Assembly: GCF_030581075.1 (NCBI RefSeq)
Contig: NZ_JAUQSW010000004.1
Coordinates: 62,001-126,000, forward strand
Source: Hymenobacter cheonanensis
GTDB lineage: Bacteria; Bacteroidota; Bacteroidia; Cytophagales; Hymenobacteraceae
Length of the DNA: 64,000 bases
Direction of reading: 5' to 3'
This document shows positions 11,768-61,599 of the stretch, piece after piece. A program made the translations under genes and the position numbers. Within the stretch, counting starts at the first letter, position 1. The number at the start of each line of letters is the position of its first letter. Below the pieces are notes generated by a model. That model saw nothing but the letters and a program-made list of their open reading frames with translations, was not told where the DNA came from and did not search any database.

Positions 11768-11869
11768 CGGTCGTCAGGCAGAGCGCAGCGAAGCATCTCG
11801 CTCGAATCGTTGGATTACTAACCCTAATGATTCGAGCGAGATGCTTCGCTGCGCTCTGCCTGACGACCG
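11768..11869. repeat. GTCATGC-family intergenic inverted repeat, copy 1 (perfect)
   Basis: The arms at 11768-11808 and 11829-11869 are 41 bases each and perfectly complementary. The core of the arm is GCAGCGAAGCATCTCGCTCG. The 20-base loop contains GGATTACTAACCCTAA. It lies between the convergent gluconolactonase and DUF885 genes. No T tract or target-site duplication is visible. Confidence 0.95.
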
Positions 11870-13758: not shown

Positions 13759-13854
13759 AAAAACGGTTGTCATGCTGACGAAAGAGGCATCTCGACAGAC
13801 GGGGTTACGCGCCCCTGGCAAGATGCTTCCTTCGTCAGCATGACAACCGTTTTT
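13759..13854. repeat. GTCATGC-family intergenic inverted repeat, copy 2 (divergent loop)
   Basis: The arms at 13759-13792 and 13821-13854 are 34 bases with two mismatches; the outer part reads AAAAACGGTTGTCATGCTGA. The arm shares GTCATGCTGACGAA and GCATCT with the family, but its loop (GC-rich, no ACCCTA) differs. The outermost A5/T5 ends would give a U run after the hairpin, so it may terminate cphA transcription. Confidence 0.9.
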
Positions 13855-26869: not shown

Positions 26870-26918
26870 CTTCGCCAGGCCCTGGCGAGCTGGCAAAGTC
26901 CGCCAGGGCCTGGCGAAG
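26870..26918. terminator. Perfect 18-bp hairpin between convergent genes
   Basis: CTTCGCCAGGCCCTGGCG and its exact complement enclose a 13-base loop. It starts 3 bases after the deacetylase stop and lies before the convergent siroheme gene. There is no U tail; end protection or termination is possible in both directions. Confidence 0.75.
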
Positions 26919-26949
26919 TTAGCTCGGCAGGGCAAGGGGGTAGCACAGG

Positions 26950-27645
26950 CTATGCTTGGGGCTTTTTTGCGGGCTCCCATTGCCTTGCCAGCAGGGTGCC
27001 CGTAGCCAGCAGGGCCCCCAGGGCCACCCACCGCCAGCGCCGGGTAGCCGGCGCCTCATACGCCCGGCCGCCGGCTAGCCCGGCCGTAACGGCGTTGAGG
27101 GCCTTGACCTTGGCGGCAAAGTCGCCGGCCAGCCGCCCCCGGATAACGGTCATTTGCTGCAACACCGCATCCAACTCATCGGGCAGGGCTTCTTCGAGCA
27201 CGGCGCGCACGCGCTTGGCCACGGTGGGCGACTTGCCGTTGGTGGAGATGGCGACTTTGAGCTGGCCCTTCTGCACCACTGAGGAAAGGTAGAAGTCGCA
27301 GAGGTCGGGCGTGTCGGCCACGTTCACGAGCAGGCGCCGGGCGCGGGCGGCGGCCTTGATGCGGCGGTGCAGGGCCGGGTCGTCGGTGGCGGCAAAGACG
27401 ATATCGGCGGCGTCGAGGTCAGTTTCGAGCCAGCCGCGCTCGATGAGCCGGAGGCGGGAGTGGCTGGCGGCTAGGGCCCGCAGCTCGGGCAGGAACGAAA
27501 AGCTGACTACCGTAACGGCCGTTTGGGGGCTGCTGCGCAGGATGGCGGTGAGTTTTTCGAGCCCCACGTTGCCGCCGCCCACGAGCAGCACGCGTAGGTT
27601 TTCGAGCTTGAGAAAGGCGGGGAAAAGGGGGTTCTGGTCGGGCAT
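26950..27645 (-). CDS. Precorrin-2 dehydrogenase/sirohydrochlorin ferrochelatase-like, with C-terminal membrane segment
   Basis: The 231-residue product begins FPAFLKLENLRVLLVGGGNVG, the Rossmann NAD-binding motif of the Met8p/CysG N-terminal domain. FAATDDPALHRRI and VNVADTPDLCDFYLSSVV, with VAISTNGKSPTVAKRVR, complete the family pattern. It oxidises precorrin-2 with NAD and inserts iron to make siroheme, the cofactor of NirB. Together with the cobA gene at 37803 it covers both steps that CysG does alone in enteric bacteria. Oddly, it ends with a hydrophobic stretch, WRWVALGALLATGTLLAR (residues about 205-222), that could tether it to the membrane. It is the last gene of the nitrate cluster. 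Confidence 0.9.
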   Translation of the reverse strand: MPDQNPLFPAFLKLENLRVLLVGGGNVGLEKLTAILRSSPQTAVTVVSFSFLPELRALAASHSRLRLIERGWLETDLDAADIVFAATDDPALHRRIKAAARARRLLVNVADTPDLCDFYLSSVVQKGQLKVAISTNGKSPTVAKRVRAVLEEALPDELDAVLQQMTVIRGRLAGDFAAKVKALNAVTAGLAGGRAYEAPATRRWRWVALGALLATGTLLARQWEPAKKPQA

Positions 27646-27671
27646 CTTGAGGCGGGAAGTAATACTTCACC

Positions 27672-27777
27672 AAAGAACGTCATGCAGAGCGCAGCGAAGC
27701 ATCTCGCTTGTGTGTTTGAATTACCTACCCTAGTAATGCGAGCGAGATGCTTCGCTGCGCTCAGCATGACGTTCTTT
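27672..27777. repeat. GTCATGC-family intergenic inverted repeat, copy 3
   Basis: The arms at 27672-27708 and 27741-27777 are 37 bases with a single mismatch; the arm core is GCAGCGAAGCATCTCGCT. The 32-base loop holds GAATTACCTACCCTAG. It sits inside the nitrate cluster, between the rubredoxin gene and the siroheme gene. Confidence 0.95.
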
Positions 27778-27787
27778 CCTTTATTCC

Positions 27788-29290
27788 CTAGTCAAGAGGA
27801 AACGCGCTGAGTTGAAAATGCGGAGCGCGCACCGCTACAAAGAAATCGGCTGGTGCCTCGCAGGTCGGACAATGATAACTGGCTAGCGCCGCGAACAGCG
27901 TGCCGGGCGCAATAGCTTGGGCAGCATCACCATACGCAGTATCGTAAACGGTGAAGCAGCGGCGGCACTGGTGCAGGGCCGGCGGTTCGGGCAGGGCGGT
28001 AGGAGTGGGGCTAGCCACGTCGCTGGGCGGGGCGGCGGGCAGGCTGGCGGCGGCCTGCTGCTCGTAAAACTGGTCGCAGAGCTGGGTGAGGTACCAGGGT
28101 AGGTTTTCGCGACTCACTTTTTTGCGGAAGCTGAGGAAATCCTTGCTGTTAGGGTTGAAATCGCGGGTGTGCAGGATTTCGTACTGCTCGGCGTGCAGGC
28201 CGGTTTGGGTGAGGCTGTCGAAATGGCGGCGCACTACGATGGAGCCGAAGAGGCCGGTTTTGGGCTGCGTTTTGATGGCGAAGCAGAGCTGAAACGTGCG
28301 CACATCTTCCTCGTTGAAATAGCGCACCAGCTCGTGCTTGAGGGCCAGGCCGTGGGCGCAGTGGTCTTCAACCTGCCAATTGAGTTCGTTGGCGGCGTGG
28401 CGCACGTTGATGCGGTGGCGGCGCAGCACAGCATCCCAGGGCGGGCGGTCGGCTAGGGCAATGCCCTTGATGATGAGCGACTTCCAGGGCGTGGTGCAGA
28501 GCTGGCCGAGGCGCGTGTGCAGGCACACCTGGCACACGTCTTTGAGAAAAGCTACCGAAAACTGCTCATCGCGCCGGTAGATGCCCAGCCACAGCTTGCT
28601 GCCGTAGCGGTTGAAGCCTTCGTAGTAAGGCAGCGTAAAATCGGGCAGGCTGAGCGGCGCGGGAAGGGGCTGCGTGCTAAAGCGTTGGCTGGCGCTCACG
28701 AGGCGGTGCAGCAGCGCGCCATCGGCCGCCGGCTGGTCATAAAATTTATCCTTATTCGCAAAAATGGCCCATTCCACGGCCCGGCTCAGGCCCGGAATAT
28801 CCTCCGAGTACACGAGGCTGGGCCAGCAATACACGGCGTTGGTTTGGGGGAAGCGCAGGGAGAGGTACCAATAATTGGGAACGTCGGAGGTGATGAAGTT
28901 GAGGTTGCCGGTGAAGAACGGAATGAACGTCTGGTGCCGGTCGATGAGGTTGATTTTCAGCTGCGGCTGGTAGTCGAAGAGGTCCAGAATGTCGCGGTAC
29001 ACGCCCTCGCGCAGCCAGGCCGTATTGTGAAACACCTCTTCCACCACGTAGGAGCTGCTGATATTGGGGTACTTATCGGCATCGACCTCGCACGCAAGGC
29101 CCGCCTGGCCCAGCGTGTGCAGCAGCCCGCGCCGGTACTCAGCGCCCACCTCAAAAAAGAGCTGCTGGCGGTTGCCGAACTGCACCTGCTCGACCTGCGC
29201 GCGCTCGGCCGCTTCCAGGATGGTGAGCAAATCGCCGGCCGACACAATGCCGCCGGGCAGGTTTATCTTGACAAGGTGGGTGTTGGACAT
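27788..29290 (-). CDS. Large rubredoxin-domain protein of the nitrate reductase cluster
   Basis: The last part of this 500-residue product (residues about 430-490) is a rubredoxin module, with HQCRRCFTVYDTAYGD and later YHCPTCEAP giving the four-Cys iron site. The first 400 residues contain CQVCLHTRLGQLCTTPWKSL and IIKGI, faintly like the nitrite/sulfite reductase half-domain, but the full siroheme-Fe4S cysteine set is not seen. Encoded 25 bases downstream of the nitrate reductase gene, it is probably its redox partner or an assembly factor. A single-domain rubredoxin has about 55 residues, so the large N-terminal part is the unknown. The function is inference from context. Confidence 0.7.
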   Translation of the reverse strand: MSNTHLVKINLPGGIVSAGDLLTILEAAERAQVEQVQFGNRQQLFFEVGAEYRRGLLHTLGQAGLACEVDADKYPNISSSYVVEEVFHNTAWLREGVYRDILDLFDYQPQLKINLIDRHQTFIPFFTGNLNFITSDVPNYWYLSLRFPQTNAVYCWPSLVYSEDIPGLSRAVEWAIFANKDKFYDQPAADGALLHRLVSASQRFSTQPLPAPLSLPDFTLPYYEGFNRYGSKLWLGIYRRDEQFSVAFLKDVCQVCLHTRLGQLCTTPWKSLIIKGIALADRPPWDAVLRRHRINVRHAANELNWQVEDHCAHGLALKHELVRYFNEEDVRTFQLCFAIKTQPKTGLFGSIVVRRHFDSLTQTGLHAEQYEILHTRDFNPNSKDFLSFRKKVSRENLPWYLTQLCDQFYEQQAAASLPAAPPSDVASPTPTALPEPPALHQCRRCFTVYDTAYGDAAQAIAPGTLFAALASYHCPTCEAPADFFVAVRAPHFQLSAFPLD

Positions 29291-29315
29291 GAAGTAAACG
29301 ATTTTTGGCGCAGGG

Positions 29316-32300
29316 CTAGCTCACCGTTACCAAGCTTTCTTCCAGCAGGCGCTGCACCTCGGGGCGGCACGAGCCGCAGCCGGTGCCCGCGCCGGTGCTG
29401 GCGCACAGCTCCTTGAGCGAGTTGCAACCGCCGGCAATGGCCTGGCGCAGGTTGTCGGCGCCCACGCCGTTGCAGCTGCACACCAGCTTGCCGAGCACGG
29501 GCGTGGCTGGCCCGCCGCTGCGTAGCAGCTGGAGGCGCTTCTCGCTCAGCTCGGTGCGGTTGGCAATGAGGTCGCGGTATTCCTGAAACTCGTTTTTATC
29601 GCCGATGAGGATGGCGCCCACCAGGCGGTCCTGATGGATAATGCATTTCTTGTAGTAGCGCTTGGCCTTGTCGATAAAGACAATTTCTTCGTAATCAGTG
29701 CTGTTAGGGCATTCGGGCAGGCCGATGCTGCACAGGTCGAAGCCGTGAATCTTGATGATGTTCATAAACGTGCTGCCGCGGTACTGGCTCGCCACGTCGC
29801 CGCTGAGGTAGCGCGCCAGCACGGCCGCCTGCTGCTCGGCGGCCGCCGTGATGCCGTAGAGCACGCCCCTAAACTCGGCAATTTCGCCCAGCGCAAACAC
29901 GCTCGGGTCGCTGGTTTGCAGGTGGGCATTCACCACTACGCCACGCTGGCAGGCTAGCCCGCTTTCGCGGGCCAGCTCGCTATTAGGCACGGTGCCGATG
30001 GCCAGAATAAGGGCGTCGCAGGCGAGGCGGCGGCCGCTTTTGAGGCCCACGCCAGTGAGGCGGGCGCGGCCGTAGTACAGCTCCACCTCGTCGTTGAAGT
30101 AAAGGTCGCAGCCCTGGTCCACCATTTCTTCCTGCAAAAGCTGGCTGCCCAGCGCATCGAGCTGCCGGTCGAGAAAGCGCGAAATGCGCTGGATAATGGT
30201 GACCCGCGTGCCGGCCTCGCGCAACGAAGCGGCCATTTCGAGGCCTAGCAGGCCGCCGCCCACTATCACCACGTGCGCCTGCCCGGGCAGGTGCTGCCTG
30301 AAGCTGTCGGCATCGGCGCGGCTGCGCATGGTGAAGATGCCGGGCAGCGTGGGCACGCCGCGCGGCACCGCCGCCCGGCTGCCGGTGGCCAGGATAAGCA
30401 CGTCGTAGGCAGTGCGCTGGCCCAGCGAGTCAACCACGTATTTCTCGGCGCGGTTGACCTCCGTCACGTGCACGCCGCGCCGCAGGGCTATGGCGTGGGC
30501 CGGCTCCTCGTGGTCCTGCATTTTAATCAGCTGCGCCCAGCTTTGGTGGCCGCTGATGTAGTCGGGCAGCATCACGCGGTTGTAAAACGGCTGGTCTTCC
30601 TTGCTGAAAATGGTGATGGTATCGTCTTGATTGACTTCGCGATACGAGCGCACGAAGCCGTGCGCCCCCGCGCCCGCCCCAACGATAACTATGCGCTGCC
30701 GGGGCTTGGCATACTTGGCCACCTGCACGGCGCAAAACTTAAAATCGGGCTCCTTGGAAACGGGGTCGAGCGCGCCGGCGGTCACGTTGTTAGCCCGGTT
30801 CAAATCGGAGCCTAGCTGCTTGCCCCAGTGCATGGGCAGAAACACCATGCCCGGCCGGATGCCTGCCGAGAGCCGCGCCGCCACGCGCACCTCGCCCCGG
30901 CGCGACTGCACCGTTACCAGGTCGCCCTCGGCCACGCCCAGCGCCGCCGCATCGTGCGGGTGCAGCTCTACAAAAGCCTGCGGGCTGTGCTGGTTGAGCT
31001 TGCTGACTTTGCCCGTTTTGGTCATCGTGTGCCACTGGTCGCGGATGCGGCCGGTAGTGAGGATGAAGGGAAAATCCTCGTCGGGCGCTTCGCTGCGAAA
31101 CGCGGCCTGCACCGGGTGAATGACGGCCCGGCGCGAGGGCGTATAAAACTGCCGGTCGGTAAACAATCGGGCCGTATCGGGCACGGGCTGGCTGGCCCGG
31201 TAGGGCCACTGCACCGAGCCGCGCTCCTGCAAAATGCGGTAAGTCAGCCCCGAAATATCGAGCGTGGTGCCGGCCGTGAGGCGCGCATGTTCCTCATAGA
31301 TAGCCGCCGGGCTAGGGTAGTCGAAGCCGCTAAAGCCCATGGCCCGCGCAAAGCGGCAGATAATTTCGGCATCGGGCAAGGCCTCGCCGGGCGCGGCTAC
31401 CACCTTGGCCAGGTGGCTGATGCGGCGCTCCGAGTTGGTCATGGTGCCTTCCTTTTCGGCCCAGGCGGCGGCGGGCAGGATAACGTCGGCATAAGCCAGC
31501 GTTTCGGGCTGGTTGCTGATTTCCTGTACCACCACGAATTTGGCCTTGGCCAGGGCCGCTTCGGCCTGGCGCGCATTGGGCAGGCTGGTGAGCGGGTTGG
31601 TGCAGAGTATCCAGATGGCTTTGAGGCGGCCATCGGCCAGGGCCTCAAACATTTCGGTGGCCGTGTAGCCGGGCGTGGCGGCCAGCGGCCCGCTGCCCCA
31701 GAACTGCTGCACCTCGGCGCGGTGGGCGGGGCTAGCCAGGTTGCGGTGCGCGGGCAGCAGGTTGCTGAGGCCGCCCACCTCGCGCCCGCCCATGGCATTG
31801 GGCTGGCCCGTGAGCGAGAGCGGCCCCGCGCCGGGCCGCCCAATCTGGCCCGTGATGAGGTGCAGATTTAACAGCGCCAGGTTTTTATCAACGCCCACGG
31901 CGCTCTGGTTCAGCCCCATCGTCCACATCGAGAGGAAGGCTTTGGCACCGCCGAGGTAGCTGGCAGCCAAGTGGATAGTTGCCTCCGGCACGCCGCACAG
32001 CTGGGCCGACTCGGCCAGCGGGCGCGCCAGCACGATGTCGCGGTAAGCTTCGAAGCCCTCGGCGTGCTGCCCGATAAACGCCAGGTCGATATCGCCGTTT
32101 TCAATGAGCACCCTGGCCAGGGCTTGCAGCAGCACCACGTCGGTGCCGGGGATGAGCTGCAAATGCACGTCGGCCAGCGCCGTAGAGTCGGTGGCGCGCG
32201 GGTCGATAACGATGATTTTGGTGGCCGGGTTTGCGGCCTTGTGGGCCTCCACGCGGCGCCACAAAATGGGGTGGCACCAGGCGGGGTTGGCGCCGGCCAC

Positions 32301-32816
32301 CAGCAGGCAGTCGGCCAGCTCAAGGTCGTCGTAGCACACGGGCACGCTGTCTTCGCCCAGCGCCATTTTGTAGCCCACCACGGCGCTGCTCATGCACAGG
32401 CGCGAGTTGGTATCGAGGTTATTGCTGCCAATAAAGCCCTTCATGAGCTTATTGAGCACGTAATACTCCTCGGTAAGGCACTGGCCCGAGGCGTAAAACG
32501 CCACCGAATCGGGCCCGTATTGGTCGATGAACGTCTTGAACACCGCCGCCGTGCGCGCCAGGGCCTCGTCCCAGCTCACGCGCTGCAAGGGGTGGTTTTT
32601 GCCGTAGCGCATCTGCGGGTGCAGCAGGCGGTCCGAGCGGTCGTTGACGGTGTATTGCAGGTTCAGGCCCTTGCTGCACAGCGCACCTTTATTGACCGGG
32701 TAAGCAGGGTTGCCGGTTACCGTTACGTCGCCGTTCTTTTCGGGCTGCACCAGCACCCCGCAGCCTACCCCGCAGTAGCAGCAGATGGATGGCGAGGCGG
32801 CGGACGAGGTGGACAT
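29316..32816 (-). CDS. Assimilatory nitrate reductase fused to an FAD oxidoreductase and BFD [2Fe-2S] domain
   Basis: The 1166-residue product is a three-part enzyme. Residues 1-~690 are a molybdopterin oxidoreductase: Cys12-x2-Cys15-x3-Cys19 and the later GALCSKG form the N-terminal [4Fe-4S] site, and NSRLCMSSAV near residue 142 holds the likely Mo-ligand Cys. Residues about 700-1080 are an NAD(P)/FAD oxidoreductase (RIVIVGAGAGAHGFVRS, VVIVGGGLLGLEMAASL, VFALGEIAEFRG). The end (CSCNGVGADNL ... TGAGTGCGSC) is a BFD-like [2Fe-2S] domain. It should reduce nitrate to nitrite in the cytoplasm with electrons entering through its own flavin module. The fused module resembles the front half of the NirB encoded in the same operon. 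Confidence 0.93.
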   Translation of the reverse strand: MSTSSAASPSICCYCGVGCGVLVQPEKNGDVTVTGNPAYPVNKGALCSKGLNLQYTVNDRSDRLLHPQMRYGKNHPLQRVSWDEALARTAAVFKTFIDQYGPDSVAFYASGQCLTEEYYVLNKLMKGFIGSNNLDTNSRLCMSSAVVGYKMALGEDSVPVCYDDLELADCLLVAGANPAWCHPILWRRVEAHKAANPATKIIVIDPRATDSTALADVHLQLIPGTDVVLLQALARVLIENGDIDLAFIGQHAEGFEAYRDIVLARPLAESAQLCGVPEATIHLAASYLGGAKAFLSMWTMGLNQSAVGVDKNLALLNLHLITGQIGRPGAGPLSLTGQPNAMGGREVGGLSNLLPAHRNLASPAHRAEVQQFWGSGPLAATPGYTATEMFEALADGRLKAIWILCTNPLTSLPNARQAEAALAKAKFVVVQEISNQPETLAYADVILPAAAWAEKEGTMTNSERRISHLAKVVAAPGEALPDAEIICRFARAMGFSGFDYPSPAAIYEEHARLTAGTTLDISGLTYRILQERGSVQWPYRASQPVPDTARLFTDRQFYTPSRRAVIHPVQAAFRSEAPDEDFPFILTTGRIRDQWHTMTKTGKVSKLNQHSPQAFVELHPHDAAALGVAEGDLVTVQSRRGEVRVAARLSAGIRPGMVFLPMHWGKQLGSDLNRANNVTAGALDPVSKEPDFKFCAVQVAKYAKPRQRIVIVGAGAGAHGFVRSYREVNQDDTITIFSKEDQPFYNRVMLPDYISGHQSWAQLIKMQDHEEPAHAIALRRGVHVTEVNRAEKYVVDSLGQRTAYDVLILATGSRAAVPRGVPTLPGIFTMRSRADADSFRQHLPGQAHVVIVGGGLLGLEMAASLREAGTRVTIIQRISRFLDRQLDALGSQLLQEEMVDQGCDLYFNDEVELYYGRARLTGVGLKSGRRLACDALILAIGTVPNSELARESGLACQRGVVVNAHLQTSDPSVFALGEIAEFRGVLYGITAAAEQQAAVLARYLSGDVASQYRGSTFMNIIKIHGFDLCSIGLPECPNSTDYEEIVFIDKAKRYYKKCIIHQDRLVGAILIGDKNEFQEYRDLIANRTELSEKRLQLLRSGGPATPVLGKLVCSCNGVGADNLRQAIAGGCNSLKELCASTGAGTGCGSCRPEVQRLLEESLVTVS

Positions 32817-32886
32817 AACAGGAAAATTGGTGGTTTATAAGGGAGTTTCCTGACCTGCACAGACAGTAGCGATTTATATTAATCGT

Positions 32887-32984
32887 CTGTCATGCAGAGC
32901 GTAGCGAAGCATCTCGCGTGCTAACGTTAGGGTTGATTAATCCACTGAAGCGAGCGAGATGCTTCGCTGCGCTCTGCATGACAG
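32887..32984. repeat. GTCATGC-family intergenic inverted repeat, copy 4 (loop reversed)
   Basis: The arms at 32887-32917 and 32954-32984 are 31 bases with one mismatch (T against C). The loop, read on the minus strand, holds GGATTAATCAACCCTAAC, so this copy is inserted in the opposite orientation to the others. It lies between the nitrate transporter and nitrate reductase genes. Confidence 0.95.
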
Positions 32985-33001
32985 CCTTTTACCTTTGAGC
33001 C

Positions 33002-34321
33002 CTAGGCCCCGGCCAGGGCTAGCGGCGCTTCGGCCGGCGCCTCGCCCGCTTCTTTCACTACCAGGCGCACCAGCAGCACCAGCGCACCCACGGCCGCCAC
33101 GCCAAAGCCAATGTAGAGAAACGCCGTGCTGTAGCTGATTTCCTTGGACTTGAAAAGGAAGCCGACCAGCATGGCGCCCAGGTTGCCGCCCGCGCCCACA
33201 ATGCCGCTCACGCTGCCGATGGCCTGCTTGTTCACAAACGGCACGATGGAGTAGGTGCAGCCGTTGGCCATTTTCAAAAACAGGGCAAACACCAGCATCG
33301 ATACGATGGCCAGCGTGAGGCTGGGGGCGAGCGAGAAAAACGCAATGCCAATGCCTTCGAGCACCAGAAAGACGCTCAGCAGCACCCACTTGCCCTTGAG
33401 GCCGTAGGCCCGGCCGGTGCGGTCGGCCACGATGCCGCCCAGGCCCCTGGCAAAGATGTTCATGAAGCCGAAGATGCCGGCCAGCAGGCCCGCCGCCACC
33501 AGCGTGGCGCCAAAGTGGTCGACGAAGTACACGGCGGCCACGTTGTCAATGGTGATTTCAATGCCGAAGCAGGCGCCGTAGGCCAGCGCCAACAGCCAGG
33601 TGCGGTAGTCGCGCAGGGCTAGCAGGAAGGTGCCTTTCTTTTTGGTCGTGGCGTCGCGCTGAATGCTGGCGTAGTTGCCGCGCGGGGTGTCTTCGGTATA
33701 CTTGTAATACAACACGGCCATTATCAAGAGGATAACGCCGGGCACTACCATCGCCAGCCGCCACGAATTGGCTTTGTCCACGTAGCCCAGGCTTACGAAG
33801 GCAGCGGCCACCAGCGGCATCACCATGTTGGCAATGCCACCGCCGAGGTTGCCCCAGCCGCCGCCCACGGCGTTGGCCGTGCCCACCACGTTGGGCGCAA
33901 ACATCATCGAGGTGTGAAACTGCGTGATGACGAACGACGCGCCGATAATGCCGATGGCTAGCCGGAATAATAGGAAAGTTTCATAGCTGTTGCTCAGACC
34001 GATAAGCATCACCGGCACGGCGCCCACCGCCAGCAGCAGCGTGTAGGCCAGCCGGGGCCCGATGGTGTCGCAAAGCTTGCCCATGAGCAGGCGCGCCAGG
34101 ATGGTGGCCGACACCGAGGCAATGACAATATTGCCCACCTGCCCCTTATCGAGGTGCAACTGCTCGCGCACCAGCGGCATGAGCGGCGCAATGCCAAACC
34201 ACCCAAAAAAGCAGAAGAAAAACGTGAGCCACGTGAGATGAAACGTGCGCATCTGCACACCTTTGGCGGCGAAGATGTTGAGCCGGGTCAGCGGCTGCTG
34301 GGCGGTAGTGGTGGCATCCAT
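33002..34321 (-). CDS. Nitrate/nitrite MFS transporter (NNP/NarK family)
   Basis: The start at 34321 (MDATTTAQQPLTRL) gives 439 residues; a longer start would run through a hairpin element. About 12 membrane helices are visible. The nitrate signature appears twice in Gly-rich form, GGGWGNLGGGIANM and GIVGAGGNLGAM, and the conserved Arg-bearing region LFRLAIGIIGASFVITQFH is present. It should import nitrate (and perhaps exchange nitrite) across the inner membrane, feeding the reductases of the same cluster. It lies between nirD upstream and the nitrate reductase downstream, with an inverted repeat on each side. Confidence 0.93.
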   Translation of the reverse strand: MDATTTAQQPLTRLNIFAAKGVQMRTFHLTWLTFFFCFFGWFGIAPLMPLVREQLHLDKGQVGNIVIASVSATILARLLMGKLCDTIGPRLAYTLLLAVGAVPVMLIGLSNSYETFLLFRLAIGIIGASFVITQFHTSMMFAPNVVGTANAVGGGWGNLGGGIANMVMPLVAAAFVSLGYVDKANSWRLAMVVPGVILLIMAVLYYKYTEDTPRGNYASIQRDATTKKKGTFLLALRDYRTWLLALAYGACFGIEITIDNVAAVYFVDHFGATLVAAGLLAGIFGFMNIFARGLGGIVADRTGRAYGLKGKWVLLSVFLVLEGIGIAFFSLAPSLTLAIVSMLVFALFLKMANGCTYSIVPFVNKQAIGSVSGIVGAGGNLGAMLVGFLFKSKEISYSTAFLYIGFGVAAVGALVLLVRLVVKEAGEAPAEAPLALAGA

Positions 34322-34343
34322 AAGCAAGTGATTTAGTGCGAAG

Positions 34344-34406
34344 TAGCGCGGGCTTTTAGTCCGCATGTGAAAAGCGATGCGAACGCGGATTACAAAGTCC
34401 GCGCTA
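34344..34406. repeat. Inverted repeat of a different family between nirD and the nitrate transporter
   Basis: The arms at 34344-34364 and 34385-34406 pair with a few mismatches. The outer part reads TAGCGCGGGCTTTTAGTCCG and its partner ends AAAGTCCGCGCTA. It begins 3 bases after the nirD stop in transcription order. It is unrelated in sequence to the GTCATGC family. Confidence 0.8.
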
Positions 34407-34408
34407 GA

Positions 34409-34759
34409 TTAAGCCCAGCCGATATACACAGTATCATTCTCTACCCGAACGGGATACGTCTGAATAGCGCACTCGTCGGCGTTCAGGCACTCGCCGGTGA
34501 GCAGCGAAAACGTGCGCTTGTGGTAAGGGCAGGCCACCTTGGGTTCGCAGGCTTCGCCGGTGCTGCCAATCATGCCCCTGGCCAGTATCATCTGCTGCTT
34601 GTGGGGGCACAGGTTTTGGGTGGCGTACCACTCGCCGCGCCGGGCAAAGTTGAAGATGGCCACCTGCTCGCCCTCTACCAGGGCACAGGCCCCGCCATCG
34701 GCGGGCACGTCGGCGGTCTGGCACACGGGGAGCCAGGTAGCTGCGGTCAGCGTTTCCAT
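34409..34759 (-). CDS. nirD: Nitrite reductase small subunit (Rieske type)
   Basis: The 116-residue product has a complete Rieske [2Fe-2S] site: Cys51-x-His53 in LCPHKQQM and Cys77-x2-His80 in CPYHKRTF. Many NirD proteins have lost these ligands, so this copy likely binds a cluster. It partners NirB in the cytoplasmic NAD(P)H nitrite reductase that makes ammonium. It follows nirB by about 200 bases, most of which is a compound foldback. Confidence 0.92.
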   Translation of the reverse strand: METLTAATWLPVCQTADVPADGGACALVEGEQVAIFNFARRGEWYATQNLCPHKQQMILARGMIGSTGEACEPKVACPYHKRTFSLLTGECLNADECAIQTYPVRVENDTVYIGWA

Positions 34760-34788
34760 AAACGGCTATTTGTTAATTGATTGTATGG

Positions 34789-34938
34789 GATGGCGCGGGG
34801 CTCTGCCCCGCGCCGTCTAGTTGCCGGCCTTTGGCCGGCGCGTCTGCAAGCGTTGTTGGGGCTGGTTTTGCCAGCGTGCCCTGGCGTGCGGGCCAGAGGC
34901 CCGCAAATAGTTGGCACAAGGCAGAGCCTCGCGCCATC
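34789..34938. repeat. Compound foldback element between nirB and nirD
   Basis: The outer arms GATGGCGCGGGGCTCTGCC (34789-34807) and GGCAGAGCCTCGCGCCATC (34920-34938) pair with one mismatch. Inside are smaller hairpins, such as GCGCGGGGC/GCCCCGCGC and GCCGGCC/GGCCGGC near 34823-34839 and GGGCC/GGCCC near 34890. The whole 150-base unit could fold as a branched structure in the nirBD message. Confidence 0.8.
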
Positions 34939-34965: not shown

Positions 34966-37470
34966 TTACCAGGCTTTAGATATCTTTTGCCCGCGCATCT
35001 CGGCAAATTCCATGGTGGGGTCTTTCACCTGGGGCGCGTTCACGAAGTGCGTGAACTGCTTGCGCAACTCTGGGTTTTCAACCACTTCCTTCCACTCACA
35101 ATGGTAGTTTTTGATGAGCAGCGAAATTTCGGCCTCCAGGTCGGCGCAAATGCCGAGGCTGTCGTTGATGACCACGTTGCGGAGGTAGGCCATGCCGCCG
35201 TCGAGCTTGTTGAGCCAGGTGGCGGTGCGCATCAGCGGGTCGGCCGTCTTGATGTAGAACATCAGGAAGCGGTCGAGGTACTTGAGTAGGGTTTCTTTAT
35301 CAAGGTCGGCGGCTAGCAGCTGCGCGTGCTGGGGCTTGGCGCCGCCGTTGCCGCACACGTAGAGGTTCCAGCCTTTTTCGGTAGCGATTACCCCGAAGTC
35401 TTTGGCTTGGGCCTCAGCGCATTCGCGCACGCAGCCGCTTACGCCACTTTTCATTTTGTGGGGCGAGCGAATACCCTTGTACCGGTTCTCAATTTCGATG
35501 GCAAAGCTCACGCTGTCGTGCAGGCCGTAGCGGCACCAGGTGCTGCCCACGCAGCTTTTCACGGTGCGCAGGCTCTTGCCGTAAGCGTGCCCGCTCTCGA
35601 AGCCTTCGGCAATCAGCTCCTCCCAGATATTGGGCAAGTCGCTGACGTGCGCCCCAAACATATCGATGCGCTGGCCCCCCGTAATCTTAGTGTAGAGCTG
35701 GTACTTCTCCGCGATGCGGCCGATGGCCATCAGCTGCTGCGGCGACACCTCGCCGCCCGCCATGCGCGGCATCACCGAGTAGCTGCCGCCCTTCTGGATG
35801 TTGGCCAGGTAGCGGTCATTGGTATCCTGAATGGTGTTTTGCTTGACAATCAGCTCATTCCACAATCCCGACAGGATGCTGCCCACAGCAGGCTTGCACA
35901 CCTCGCATCCATCGCCGGTGCCGAAGTGGTCGAGTGCCGCGCCATAAGTGCGAATGTCGTTGATTTTCAGTAGGTCAAATAGCTCTTGGCGCGAGTAGTC
36001 GAAGTGCTCGCACAGCACGTTTTTGATGTAGGCGCCCTGCGCCGTGAGCGTGCCGTTGATAAGGTCCTTCACCATGGGTACGCAGCCGCCGCAGCCGGTG
36101 CCGGCCTTGTTGCACTTCTTCATGGCGTCCACGCTGGTGGCGCCTAGCCCGGTCACGGCGTCGCAAATCATGCCCTTGGTCACGGCCTCGCACGAGCACA
36201 CCAAGGCTTCATTGGGCAGGCTCATTACGCCAGCGCCCTCGCTGGCCTCGCCGCCGCGGGCACCCAGAATCAGGTCTTCGGGGTGCGGCGGCAGGGCCAG
36301 CTTGTTGTTGACGGTTTGCAGCAGCATGTTGTAGGCCTCCGCATCGCCAATAAGCACGCCGCCAAGCAGATACTTACCGTCGGGGCTGATATTGATGCGC
36401 TTATACACCCCGCTGTGCGCGTCCTCGAACACGATGCTGCGGCTGTGCGGCTCCGCAATAAACGGGTCGCCGAAGCTAGCCACGTCTACCCCAATCAGCT
36501 TGAGCTTGCTGCTCATGTCGTAGCCGGTGAAGGCGCGGGCGCCTTGTTGCAACTGGCTCACTACCACTTCGGCCATGTCGTAGCCGGGCGCCACGAGGCC
36601 GTAAATCATGCCGCCGTGCAGCGCGCACTCGCCGATGGCGAAGATGCTGGGGTCGCTGGTACGCATCTCGTCGTTGACCACGATGCCGCCGCGCATGCCC
36701 ACTTCCAGGCCGGCTAGCTTGGCTAGCTCGTCGCGCGGCCGGATGCCGGCCGAAATCACCAGCATATCTACTTCCAGAATGGAGCCGTCGCCGAAGTGCA
36801 GGGCGTCTATCTTACCCTCACCGCCAATGTGCGAGGTAGCCTTGCTGAGGTGAATTTTCAGCCCTAGCGCCTCCAGCTTGGCTTGCAGCATGGCGCTGCC
36901 GGCCGCGTCTATCTGCCTGGGCATGAGGCGCGGGGCAAATTCTACCACGTGGGCGTCGGCCACGCCGAGGTCGAGCAGGGCTTTGGCGGCTTCGAGGCCT
37001 AGCAGGCCGCCGCCGAGCACGGCGCCGCTGCGGGCGGTGGCCGCGTAGGCTTTTATCTCGTCGAGGTCCTCGATGGTGCGGTACACCATCACGCCCTGCT
37101 TCTCCACGCCCGGCACATCGGGCACGAAGGCCGACGAGCCGGTAGCCAGCACCAGGTAGTCGTAGGGCTGCACGAGGCCGCTGCGGGCGTGCACCGTGCG
37201 GCTGGCCCGGTCGATTTCCTGCACGGCATCGCCGAGGTGCAGCACGATGCCATTGTCGTGGTACCACTGCCGGGGGGCCATTAGCAGGTCGTCGGCGGTT
37301 TTGCCGCCGAAATACTCGCTCAGGTGCACGCGGTCGTAGGCCACGCGGGGCTCTTCGCCGAATACTACGAGGTTAAAAGCGGTCGACTTGGCGAGGAGCT
37401 TCTCGCAAAATTTGTAGCCGACCATGCCGTTGCCGATAACAACGACGGTTGGTTTTCCCTGCGGTGCCAT
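34966..37470 (-). CDS. nirB: NAD(P)H nitrite reductase, large subunit
   Basis: The 834-residue product has the full NirB order. An FAD/NAD domain comes first (VVVIGNGMVGYKFCEKL, the second Rossmann motif GAVLGGGLLGLEAAKAL, and SIFAIGECALHGG). BFD-type [2Fe-2S] Cys motifs follow (VCSCEAVTKGM ... NKAGTGCGGCVPM) near residues 420-460. The C-terminal siroheme-[4Fe-4S] domain has SCVGSTWCRYG and SGVSGCVRECAEAQ as the four-Cys cluster ligands. It reduces nitrite to ammonium with six electrons from NAD(P)H, using siroheme made by the cobA and precorrin-2 dehydrogenase genes. It is the first gene of the nitrate cluster and shares a divergent promoter region with cobA. Confidence 0.97.
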   Translation of the reverse strand: MAPQGKPTVVVIGNGMVGYKFCEKLLAKSTAFNLVVFGEEPRVAYDRVHLSEYFGGKTADDLLMAPRQWYHDNGIVLHLGDAVQEIDRASRTVHARSGLVQPYDYLVLATGSSAFVPDVPGVEKQGVMVYRTIEDLDEIKAYAATARSGAVLGGGLLGLEAAKALLDLGVADAHVVEFAPRLMPRQIDAAGSAMLQAKLEALGLKIHLSKATSHIGGEGKIDALHFGDGSILEVDMLVISAGIRPRDELAKLAGLEVGMRGGIVVNDEMRTSDPSIFAIGECALHGGMIYGLVAPGYDMAEVVVSQLQQGARAFTGYDMSSKLKLIGVDVASFGDPFIAEPHSRSIVFEDAHSGVYKRINISPDGKYLLGGVLIGDAEAYNMLLQTVNNKLALPPHPEDLILGARGGEASEGAGVMSLPNEALVCSCEAVTKGMICDAVTGLGATSVDAMKKCNKAGTGCGGCVPMVKDLINGTLTAQGAYIKNVLCEHFDYSRQELFDLLKINDIRTYGAALDHFGTGDGCEVCKPAVGSILSGLWNELIVKQNTIQDTNDRYLANIQKGGSYSVMPRMAGGEVSPQQLMAIGRIAEKYQLYTKITGGQRIDMFGAHVSDLPNIWEELIAEGFESGHAYGKSLRTVKSCVGSTWCRYGLHDSVSFAIEIENRYKGIRSPHKMKSGVSGCVRECAEAQAKDFGVIATEKGWNLYVCGNGGAKPQHAQLLAADLDKETLLKYLDRFLMFYIKTADPLMRTATWLNKLDGGMAYLRNVVINDSLGICADLEAEISLLIKNYHCEWKEVVENPELRKQFTHFVNAPQVKDPTMEFAEMRGQKISKAW

Positions 37471-42223: not shown

Positions 42224-42277
42224 GAAGAAGGGGGCGTGAAAAATTACTGCCAGGTAATTTTTCACGCCCCCTTCTTC
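42224..42277. terminator. Perfect 24-bp hairpin downstream of lepB
   Basis: GAAGAAGGGGGCGTGAAAAA TTAC and its exact complement pair across the 6-base loop TGCCAG. It lies 15 bases past the lepB stop and before the HNH promoter region. It is a long, perfect stem with no U tail. Confidence 0.88.
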
Positions 42278-47851: not shown

Positions 47852-47978
47852 TTTGTCCTTGCGAGCGCAACGAAGTGAAGCGCGGTACTCTTTCCTTTGT
47901 CGCCTGCATCAAGGGGTTACTAGCCCAGCGGGAAGGGAAGAGTACCGCGCTCCATTTCGTTGCGCTCGCAAGGGCAAA
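47852..47978. repeat. Long inverted repeat between the metal-dependent hydrolase and parA genes
   Basis: The arms at about 47852-47898 and 47931-47978 pair with few mismatches. The outer part reads CCTTGCGAGCGCAACGAA and the inner part GAGCGCGGTACTCTT-like sequence. It resembles in style the CATTGCGAGGAGGAACGAAG element at 61485, with the shared idea TTGCGAG...AACGAAG. It starts about 130 bases upstream of the parA start. Confidence 0.9.
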
Positions 47979-52937: not shown

Positions 52938-53059
52938 AGAACGCCAGGCTGAGCTGGCGCCCGCCTGCCGAAGCCGCTCGCTTGCACCGTTGGAGCAGTA
53001 ACCCTAACGGCGCAAGCGAGTGGCTTCGGCAGGCGGACGCCAGTTGAGCCTGACGTTCT
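52938..53059. repeat. GTCATGC-family-related inverted repeat, copy 5 (long arms)
   Basis: The arms at 52938-52985 and 53012-53059 are 48 bases with five mismatches, the longest here. The arm has CAGGCTGAGC and GCCGAAGCCGCTCGC where other copies have CATGCTGAGC and GCGAAGCATCTCGC. The loop GGAGCAGTAACCCTAACG keeps the family's core. It sits between pyrG and yidC. Confidence 0.93.
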
Positions 53060-60024: not shown

Positions 60025-60134
60025 AAAACAGCCCGTCATGCTGAGCTTGTCGAAGCAGCTCGCCCGAGTCGTTAGGAAGTACCCTAGCGGCGCAGGTAAG
60101 CTGCTTTGACAAGCTCAGCATGACGGGCTGTTTT
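60025..60134. repeat. GTCATGC-family intergenic inverted repeat, copy 6
   Basis: The arms at 60025-60060 and 60099-60134 are 36 bases with one mismatch; they read GTCATGCTGAGCTTGTCGAA inside AAAACAGCCC ends. The 38-base loop holds AGGAAGTACCCTAGCG. It lies between the convergent GH5 and ilvA genes; the outer A4/T4 ends might aid termination. Confidence 0.95.
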
Positions 60135-61484: not shown

Positions 61485-61599
61485 CCTGTCATTGCGAGGA
61501 GGAACGACGAAGCAATCGCACCAGAACGGCTACCCCAATACGAGGCGAGCGCTACTGTTCTGATGCGATTGCTTCGTCGTTCCTCCTCGCAATGACAGG
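61485..61599. repeat. Perfect inverted repeat between ilvC and ilvA (CATTGCGAGG family)
   Basis: The arms at 61485-61520 and 61564-61599 are 36 bases and perfectly complementary; the arm reads TCATTGCGAGGAGGAACGAC then GAAGCAATCGCA. The loop contains CAGAAC...GTTCTG, which can extend the stem. It belongs to a motif type different from the GTCATGC family but built in the same way. Confidence 0.95.

Follow-up and report, generated by a model that had tools for sequence, protein, structure and literature searches.

The closest described class to the repeats considered here is that of the CGTC-tagged repetitive extragenic palindromic (REP) sequences, which form head-to-head dimers (Di Nocera et al. 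2013, PMC3733652), have already been reported from Bacteroidetes, and in other bacteria show the same placement as the repeats described below (PMC3733652). Within the open-access literature, no paper on REP repeats in Hymenobacter was found, which is weak evidence. The window analyzed here is a stretch of 64,000 nucleotides from a 5.36-Mb Hymenobacter genome (contig C17, bases 62001-126000), in which the junctions between the genes of a nitrate cluster are occupied by inverted repeats, i.e., stems. These junction stems are probably copies of genome-wide palindromic repeats resembling the CGTC-tagged REPs, which turn over fast, are gathered at the 3' ends of genes and in many cases are built like terminators, without a dedicated role in nitrate metabolism.

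According to Pfam, the minus strand of the window carries, in this order, nirB, nirD, an MFS transporter gene (narK), a fused nitrate reductase gene (nasA), a gene for a rubredoxin-domain protein and one for a siroheme synthase N-terminal domain, which confirms the gene identities assigned in an earlier reading of this DNA (hereafter, the original prediction). That prediction had also placed inverted repeats in four of the five same-direction gaps of the cluster, leaving out the 25-bp gap between nasA and the rubredoxin gene; all of the named stems were recovered at their places, and no fold was found in the 25-bp gap. The genes and gaps are as follows.

34966..37470, minus strand: nirB, large subunit of the NAD(P)H nitrite reductase (Pfam Pyr_redox_2, Fer2_BFD, NIR_SIR)
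34789..34938, no strand: compound palindrome in the nirB-nirD gap, with outer 54-nt arms and two inner hairpins
34409..34759, minus strand: nirD, Rieske-type small subunit (PF13806)
34344..34406, no strand: TAGCGCGG(A/G)CTTT palindrome in the nirD-narK gap, recognized by its fold and family matches
33002..34321, minus strand: MFS nitrate transporter, NarK/NasA-type (PF07690), with the start set by the gene caller
32880..32991, no strand: GTCATGC head-to-head palindrome in the transporter-nitrate reductase gap, core 32887-32984
29316..32816, minus strand: assimilatory nitrate reductase of 1166 aa with a fused FAD/BFD reductase portion (PF00384, PF01568, PF07992, PF18267, PF04324); the single chain thus unites catalytic and electron-transfer parts, with molybdopterin, pyridine nucleotide-disulphide reductase, Rubredoxin_C and BFD domains
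29291..29315, no strand: stemless nasA-rubredoxin gap, 25 bp, no fold
27788..29290, minus strand: protein with an N-terminal NIR/SIR half domain and a C-terminal rubredoxin domain (PF00301, PF03460)
27672..27777, no strand: GTCATGC head-to-head palindrome in the rubredoxin-siroheme gap, with the outer stem AAAGAAC/GTTCTTT, recognized by its arms and fold
26950..27645, minus strand: siroheme synthase N-terminal gene, precorrin-2 dehydrogenase-type (PF13241, PF14824)
26870..26918, no strand: 18-bp perfect inverted repeat in a convergent gap beside a deacetylase stop codon, recognized by its arms and fold

When folds are compared with those of dinucleotide shuffles, four of the five stems in this interval reach z scores between -5.5 and -11.6. 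The rubredoxin-siroheme element is the strongest (37-nt arms, 97% complementary; z -11.6), followed by the core of the transporter-nitrate reductase element (z -10.1) and the nirB-nirD element, whose 54-nt arms are 80% complementary and which, together with its inner hairpins, folds at -98.4 kcal/mol (z -9.2). The fifth stem of the interval, which lies after the deacetylase gene and was not mentioned in the original prediction, has 18-bp perfect arms (z -5.5). The 34344-34406 element is weaker: its arm score is only 10, a level also reached in shuffles and below the counting threshold of 14 used in the survey described next, and its fold has a z score of -3.1, with 0 of 200 shuffles folding as well. 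Its family nevertheless has 37 arm matches genome-wide, versus 7 for the reversed control, and the element is retained in two other Hymenobacter genomes (G040 and G021) with paired changes. The distinction drawn originally between a "forward" GTCATGC copy at 27672 and a "reversed" one at 32887 is meaningless, as on the plus strand, the left end is GTCATGC and the right end GCATGAC in both copies.

The survey of the present genome drew on a 1.6-Mb sample composed of all of C17, 700 kb from C11 and 400 kb from C16, in which genes were called by a home-made hexamer model that misses some genes and sets starts approximately; an inverted repeat was counted as strong at a score of at least 14. The sample contains 321 strong inverted repeats, as opposed to 0 in dinucleotide-preserving shuffles, and 300 of them (93%) are intergenic. 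Clustering of their arms yields one dominant superfamily, termed GTCAT, with 97 of the 321 repeats; the remainder comprises a second family, of CCCCTCTCC type, as well as numerous A-tract/T-tract terminators and singletons. Arms of the GTCATGC type, allowing up to 3 mismatches, number 121 in the genome, and the reversed control gives 0. The family is strong in Hymenobacter, being present in 75 of 81 genomes with 0-188 forward copies per genome, and sparse outside it: a subfamily word is matched in 10 of 198 Bacteroidota genomes (3/10 Hymenobacter, the present genome included), and plasmid matches to the family are exclusively from Hymenobacter. The elements at 27672 and 32887 belong to this superfamily, as do six further elements in the window, none of which is assigned to a strand.

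11768..11869: GTCAGGC member, by arm clustering; at the same junction, G065 has a plain terminator
13759..13854: GTCAT element with the terminator-like outer stem AAAAACGGTT/AACCGTTTTT; in G040, the outer stem is ACGTTT/AAACGT
47852..47978: GTCCTTGCG member, by arm clustering
52938..53059: GCCAGGC member, by arm clustering
60025..60134: GTCAT element with the terminator-like outer stem AAAACAGCCC/GGGCTGTTTT; G040 has a short, collapsed terminator-like hairpin at the same junction
61485..61599: GTCATTGCG member, by arm clustering

The window also contains a perfect 24-bp palindrome, GAAGAAGGGGGCGTGAAAAATTAC, at 42224-42277; in G065, a palindrome of AGCGCG type stands at this junction.

The typical GTCAT element is approximately 92 bp in length and consists of two [C/T]GTC-AT... 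units placed head to head, with their tags pointing outward, around a spacer that is mostly near 33 nt and whose sequence recurs among copies. The tag [C/T]GTC is found in 166 of 170 arms, and AT follows GTC directly in 137 of them; units of the ATGC type fold into 5 bp, a tandem G-A mismatch and 1-2 further bp, and the tails after the unit are chiefly CTTG (27), CTCG (22) and CGCA (19; n=145). Words of the GTCAT type almost always occur inside inverted repeats with the tag outward (149/168), and 4 of the 168 lie in coding DNA. Pairing usually extends 3-10 bp outward from the units into an outer stem with a copy-specific sequence; at least 5 contiguous outer pairs are present in 45% of copies, compared with 3% when flanks are re-dealt, and beyond the outer stem, A-tracts (left side) and T-tracts (right side) occupy 61-73% of outer flanks, against a background of 20%. 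Both arms of a copy stay matched while their sequence differs between copies and species, as arm agreement amounts to 0.94 within one copy and 0.56 between copies.

Shortened forms of the element are also observed. Collapsed GTCAT elements of 26-27 bp (GTCATGCTTCGC..GCTCAGCATGAC) lie at C17:2819-2844, C11:89375-89401 and C11:569180-569206 and in the narK-nasA gap of locus L043, and seem to reflect one and the same deletion, repeated between the arms' ATGC words; some retain the outer A/T-tract stem and resemble plain terminators. In two genomes of the same order but another family (G129 and G265), a single-unit form, GTCATGCTGAGC..GAAGCATGAC, carries a GTC/GAC tag at both ends and is possibly a monomer of the GTCAT repeat.

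The copies are dispersed and lie almost wholly in intergenic DNA, most densely right behind stop codons and where two genes converge, with few in divergent gaps. A strong stem of any family is present in 99 of 198 convergent gaps (50%), 158 of 792 same-direction gaps (20%) and 14 of 192 divergent gaps (7%); the GTCAT elements alone are distributed over 64 same-direction, 23 convergent and 4 divergent gaps. The median distance of a stem is 22 bp to the upstream stop and 53 bp to the next start (p 4e-12). Gaps without elements are short partly because the elements themselves form most of the length of longer gaps; in a model that includes the element-free gap length, the length coefficient is near 0, and orientation has a likelihood ratio of 97.9 (2 df). 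The stems thus do not simply follow intergenic length, which is the outcome that the original prediction had named as its refutation. Against this background, the nitrate cluster is an ordinary sample of the genome-wide stems, since at least 3 stems in 5 gaps have a probability of about 0.08 at the genome rate of ~23% per comparable gap.

Comparison with 20 further Hymenobacter loci revealed that stems have been gained or lost, have collapsed or have been exchanged for others at one and the same nitrate junction in different species. Between the transporter and nitrate reductase genes, a GTCATGC element occurs in the present genome and, with different flanks, in G019, a collapsed relic of it in G040 and CCCCTCTCC palindromes in G021 and G034; this gap is empty in G065, the nearest relative, whose transporter is 97% identical, and at other loci contains at least two further unrelated palindromes or measures merely 24-41 bp. 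The compound nirB-nirD element is shared with G065 only, among 12 relatives from which the gap was extracted, and is absent from G040 and G021. At the rubredoxin-siroheme junction, G040 displays another subfamily within the same outer stem, and G065 a truncated scar. The nasA-rubredoxin gap, stemless here, bears a stem in H. coccineus, H. polaris and H. cavernae (loci L154, L164 and L222), which is an arm with the GTCAT-family word AGCGAAGCATCT in the first species and of CCCC type in the other two. Since the contents of the gaps differ in this way among relatives, the presence of a stem is lineage-specific. Two observations concern the genes themselves: at L046, L049, L053 and L055, the nirD-narK gap spans ~1.4 kb, with an extra gene apparently in place of the stem, and at L058 (G071), the transporter orthologue contains an in-frame TAG and is possibly a pseudogene.

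Occupied junctions tend to be the same ones in related species, in some cases with a different family at the site. Where a gene pair is conserved in G065 or G040, a stem at its junction in the present genome is predictive of a stem there as well (odds ratios 8.8 and 16.1, respectively, for same-direction gaps), and this co-occupancy remains when element-free length is adjusted for (p 8.5e-7 in G065 and 5e-14 in G040). Roughly one in two shared stem sites lacks any common 10-mer, and when same-family pairs are removed, the odds ratios are still 4.8 (p 0.01) and 6.7 (p 7e-5), with families sorted by simple word patterns, under which at least one listed pair, CCGTCATGCTGACG vs TCATGCTGAGC, is probably one family after all. 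Where both species have a GTCAT element (18 junctions), 127 positions are altered on both arms and 47 on one, and the whole subfamily has often switched, usually together with the outer stem. The idea that elements were inserted into pre-existing terminators, which would account for the outer stems, is weakened by the frequent change of the outer stem with the subfamily at the same junction. Co-occupancy and paired arm changes can be produced by recurrent insertion at favored sites, by conversion from other copies, by template switching between arms, which is a documented mechanism (PMC8794818), or by selection on the hairpin, and the data do not separate these. We tentatively propose that the conserved hairpin site may be the gene junction rather than a sequence, with unrelated, fast-evolving and arm-homogenized mobile families swapping at the same 3' ends and supplying terminators and operon-internal attenuators.

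The original prediction had interpreted the stems as marks of permitted expression differences within the nitrate operon, with the absence of a stem indicating equal amounts of the adjoining products. Such a reading draws on the preference of stems for gene 3' ends, which exceeds the effect of length, on the junction occupancy common to species after length adjustment, and on the ribosomal and RNA polymerase gene clusters of the sample, in which no GTCAT or CCCC element occurs in the few and often short gaps, an absence that is also compatible with tolerance of the elements elsewhere. It was followed up with a codon index derived from four genes of translation and RNA polymerase, which is a proxy for expression only. 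Across same-direction gaps, the absolute index difference is the same whether or not a stem is present (p 0.72); the signed difference is slightly in favor of the upstream gene for all stems (p 0.002) and for plain terminators (p 0.007) and is not significant for GTCAT elements (p 0.11), and a self-trained index agrees on both the signed and the absolute result. Stem-separated genes are no less conserved in their adjacency, taken as an operon proxy. As the predicted step is thus no larger across stems, as the remaining nitrate gaps are stemless in many relatives of identical gene order, and as the very gap held to indicate equal amounts is stem-bearing in three other Hymenobacter, the link to expression steps is unlikely and the interpretation fails for the most part; what stands in its favor is the independence of stems from length alone and the junction occupancy common to species.

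Purely selfish or neutral palindromes would accumulate wherever they are harmless, without effect on expression, and would lie near stop codons through avoidance of promoters and coding sequence. The rapid turnover and family swapping, the lack of a significant G-U excess in the stems and the range of 0 to 188 forward copies within one genus are all in keeping with this account; the outer A-/T-tracts, the terminator-like derivatives, the high occupancy of convergent gaps and the return of unrelated families to the same junctions (odds ratios 4.8-6.7) instead suggest that the elements serve as hairpins at 3' ends or share a target preference, such that a wholly neutral origin is possible but rather doubtful. 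Motifs similar to DNA uptake sequences, which in Neisseria and Haemophilus form inverted pairs that serve as terminators, would likewise be expected as inverted pairs with T-tracts at gene ends; uptake words are also common as single words and within genes, contrary to the distribution of the GTCAT words given above, and the candidate was rejected as very improbable. That the gaps harbor nitrate-specific RNA regulators, i.e., a riboswitch, an attenuator or a protein site, might be supposed from the strong folds and is scarcely credible, given that the same elements occur genome-wide and are not conserved in orthologous gaps, and that an Rfam search of the window returned nothing beyond one tRNA.

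The interpretation of the stems as mobile, terminator-built repeats has to contend with several observations of its own. No mobilizing enzyme was identified for the GTCAT copies among the Y1_Tnp genes examined, and the species compared, whose intergenic DNA is too diverged, showed neither a clean empty site nor a target duplication. Mismatches in the sense RNA of the stems are G-U in 40 cases and A-C in 28 (p 0.18), an excess that is not significant, and RNA-level selection is therefore not demonstrated. The sense-side T-tract excess of GTCAT elements is slight (p 0.03), and the 32887 copy has no T-tract on that side. A generic terminator scan of the cluster gave no excess (14 vs 11.5 expected), its 8-nt loop limit excluding the GTCAT elements. 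All of these weigh against it.

Under the interpretation as genome-wide, REP-like copies, the elements would have spread through some mobilizing activity, and their arms may be held alike through template switching at replication or through exchange for other copies, with slow compensatory mutation being the less favored cause. When the upstream gene is read through, the RNA would fold into a long hairpin directly behind the stop codon. Where a T-tract follows the hairpin in the sense direction, a terminator is predicted, and where it does not, the hairpin may act as a barrier at the mRNA 3' end or as an attenuator; the 32887 copy would at most slow 3' decay or cause the polymerase to pause. 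Elements at gene 3' ends may be tolerated and perhaps recruited, and modest, lineage-specific effects on the nitrate operon would be expected, without nitrate-specific regulation. A nitrate-specific regulatory story is thereby replaced by a testable genome-wide one, in which terminator-built repeats stand at the same gene ends of related species while their sequences turn over. If GTCAT-type repeats do end or attenuate transcription, the family would be a continuing source of operon punctuation in Hymenobacter, and the matched changes in the arms provide a natural setting in which to tell template switching from RNA-level compensation.

Several known systems share part of this architecture. 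Bacterial miniature inverted-repeat transposable elements such as NEMIS, RUP and ERIC (class in PMC3733652) are likewise ~100 bp, non-coding, palindromic and intergenic, with transcribable hairpins; unlike for these, neither a parent insertion sequence nor a terminal repeat or target duplication was identified for the GTCAT family among the species compared. With bidirectional intrinsic terminators, the family shares an A-tract, a GC-containing stem, a T-tract and a location in convergent gaps, and a T-tract after the stem is a family-wide feature, from which the 32887 copy departs on its sense side; however, its stem is repeat-derived, with 35-50 bp and a loop of ~33 nt, rather than a short unique hairpin. 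The RAYT/REPIN (GTAG REP) systems also combine paired palindromes with high copy number. The only Y1_Tnp (RAYT-like) gene of the genome (L032 1250-1797, minus strand; C11:49261-49485) has compound palindromes of ~220 bp (GGCGCGAGTTTAGGCG...) on either side, of which further partial copies occur elsewhere in the sample, and this locus represents a REPtron- or TIRtron-like unit. In contrast to RAYT systems, in which the RAYT gene is flanked by the same repeat, this bracketing family is not GTCAT, and a RAYT as mobilizer of the GTCAT copies is unsupported; moreover, copy number shows no clear dependence on Y1_Tnp, and four genomes with 55-104 forward GTCAT copies have no Y1_Tnp match.

The resemblance to the CGTC-tagged REPs is closer. 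The GTCAT family has the terminal CGTC tag (often TGTC), A-T as the first two stem positions and a predominance of head-to-head dimers in tag-outward inverted pairs, in the proportions given above, as well as a recurring spacer, many subfamilies with matched arm changes, sites after genes and in convergent gaps, and no transposase flanked by its units. The unit stem, however, comprises 5 bp and a tandem G-A mismatch instead of 8-9 bp with a 4-5 nt loop, the tail is mostly CTTG/CTCG instead of a short unpaired tail most fitting CCA, and an extra, copy-specific outer stem ends in A-/T-tracts. As it has neither a unit stem of 8-9 bp nor a CCA tail, the GTCAT family is described as a variant that works like the CGTC-tagged REP class rather than as a member of it.

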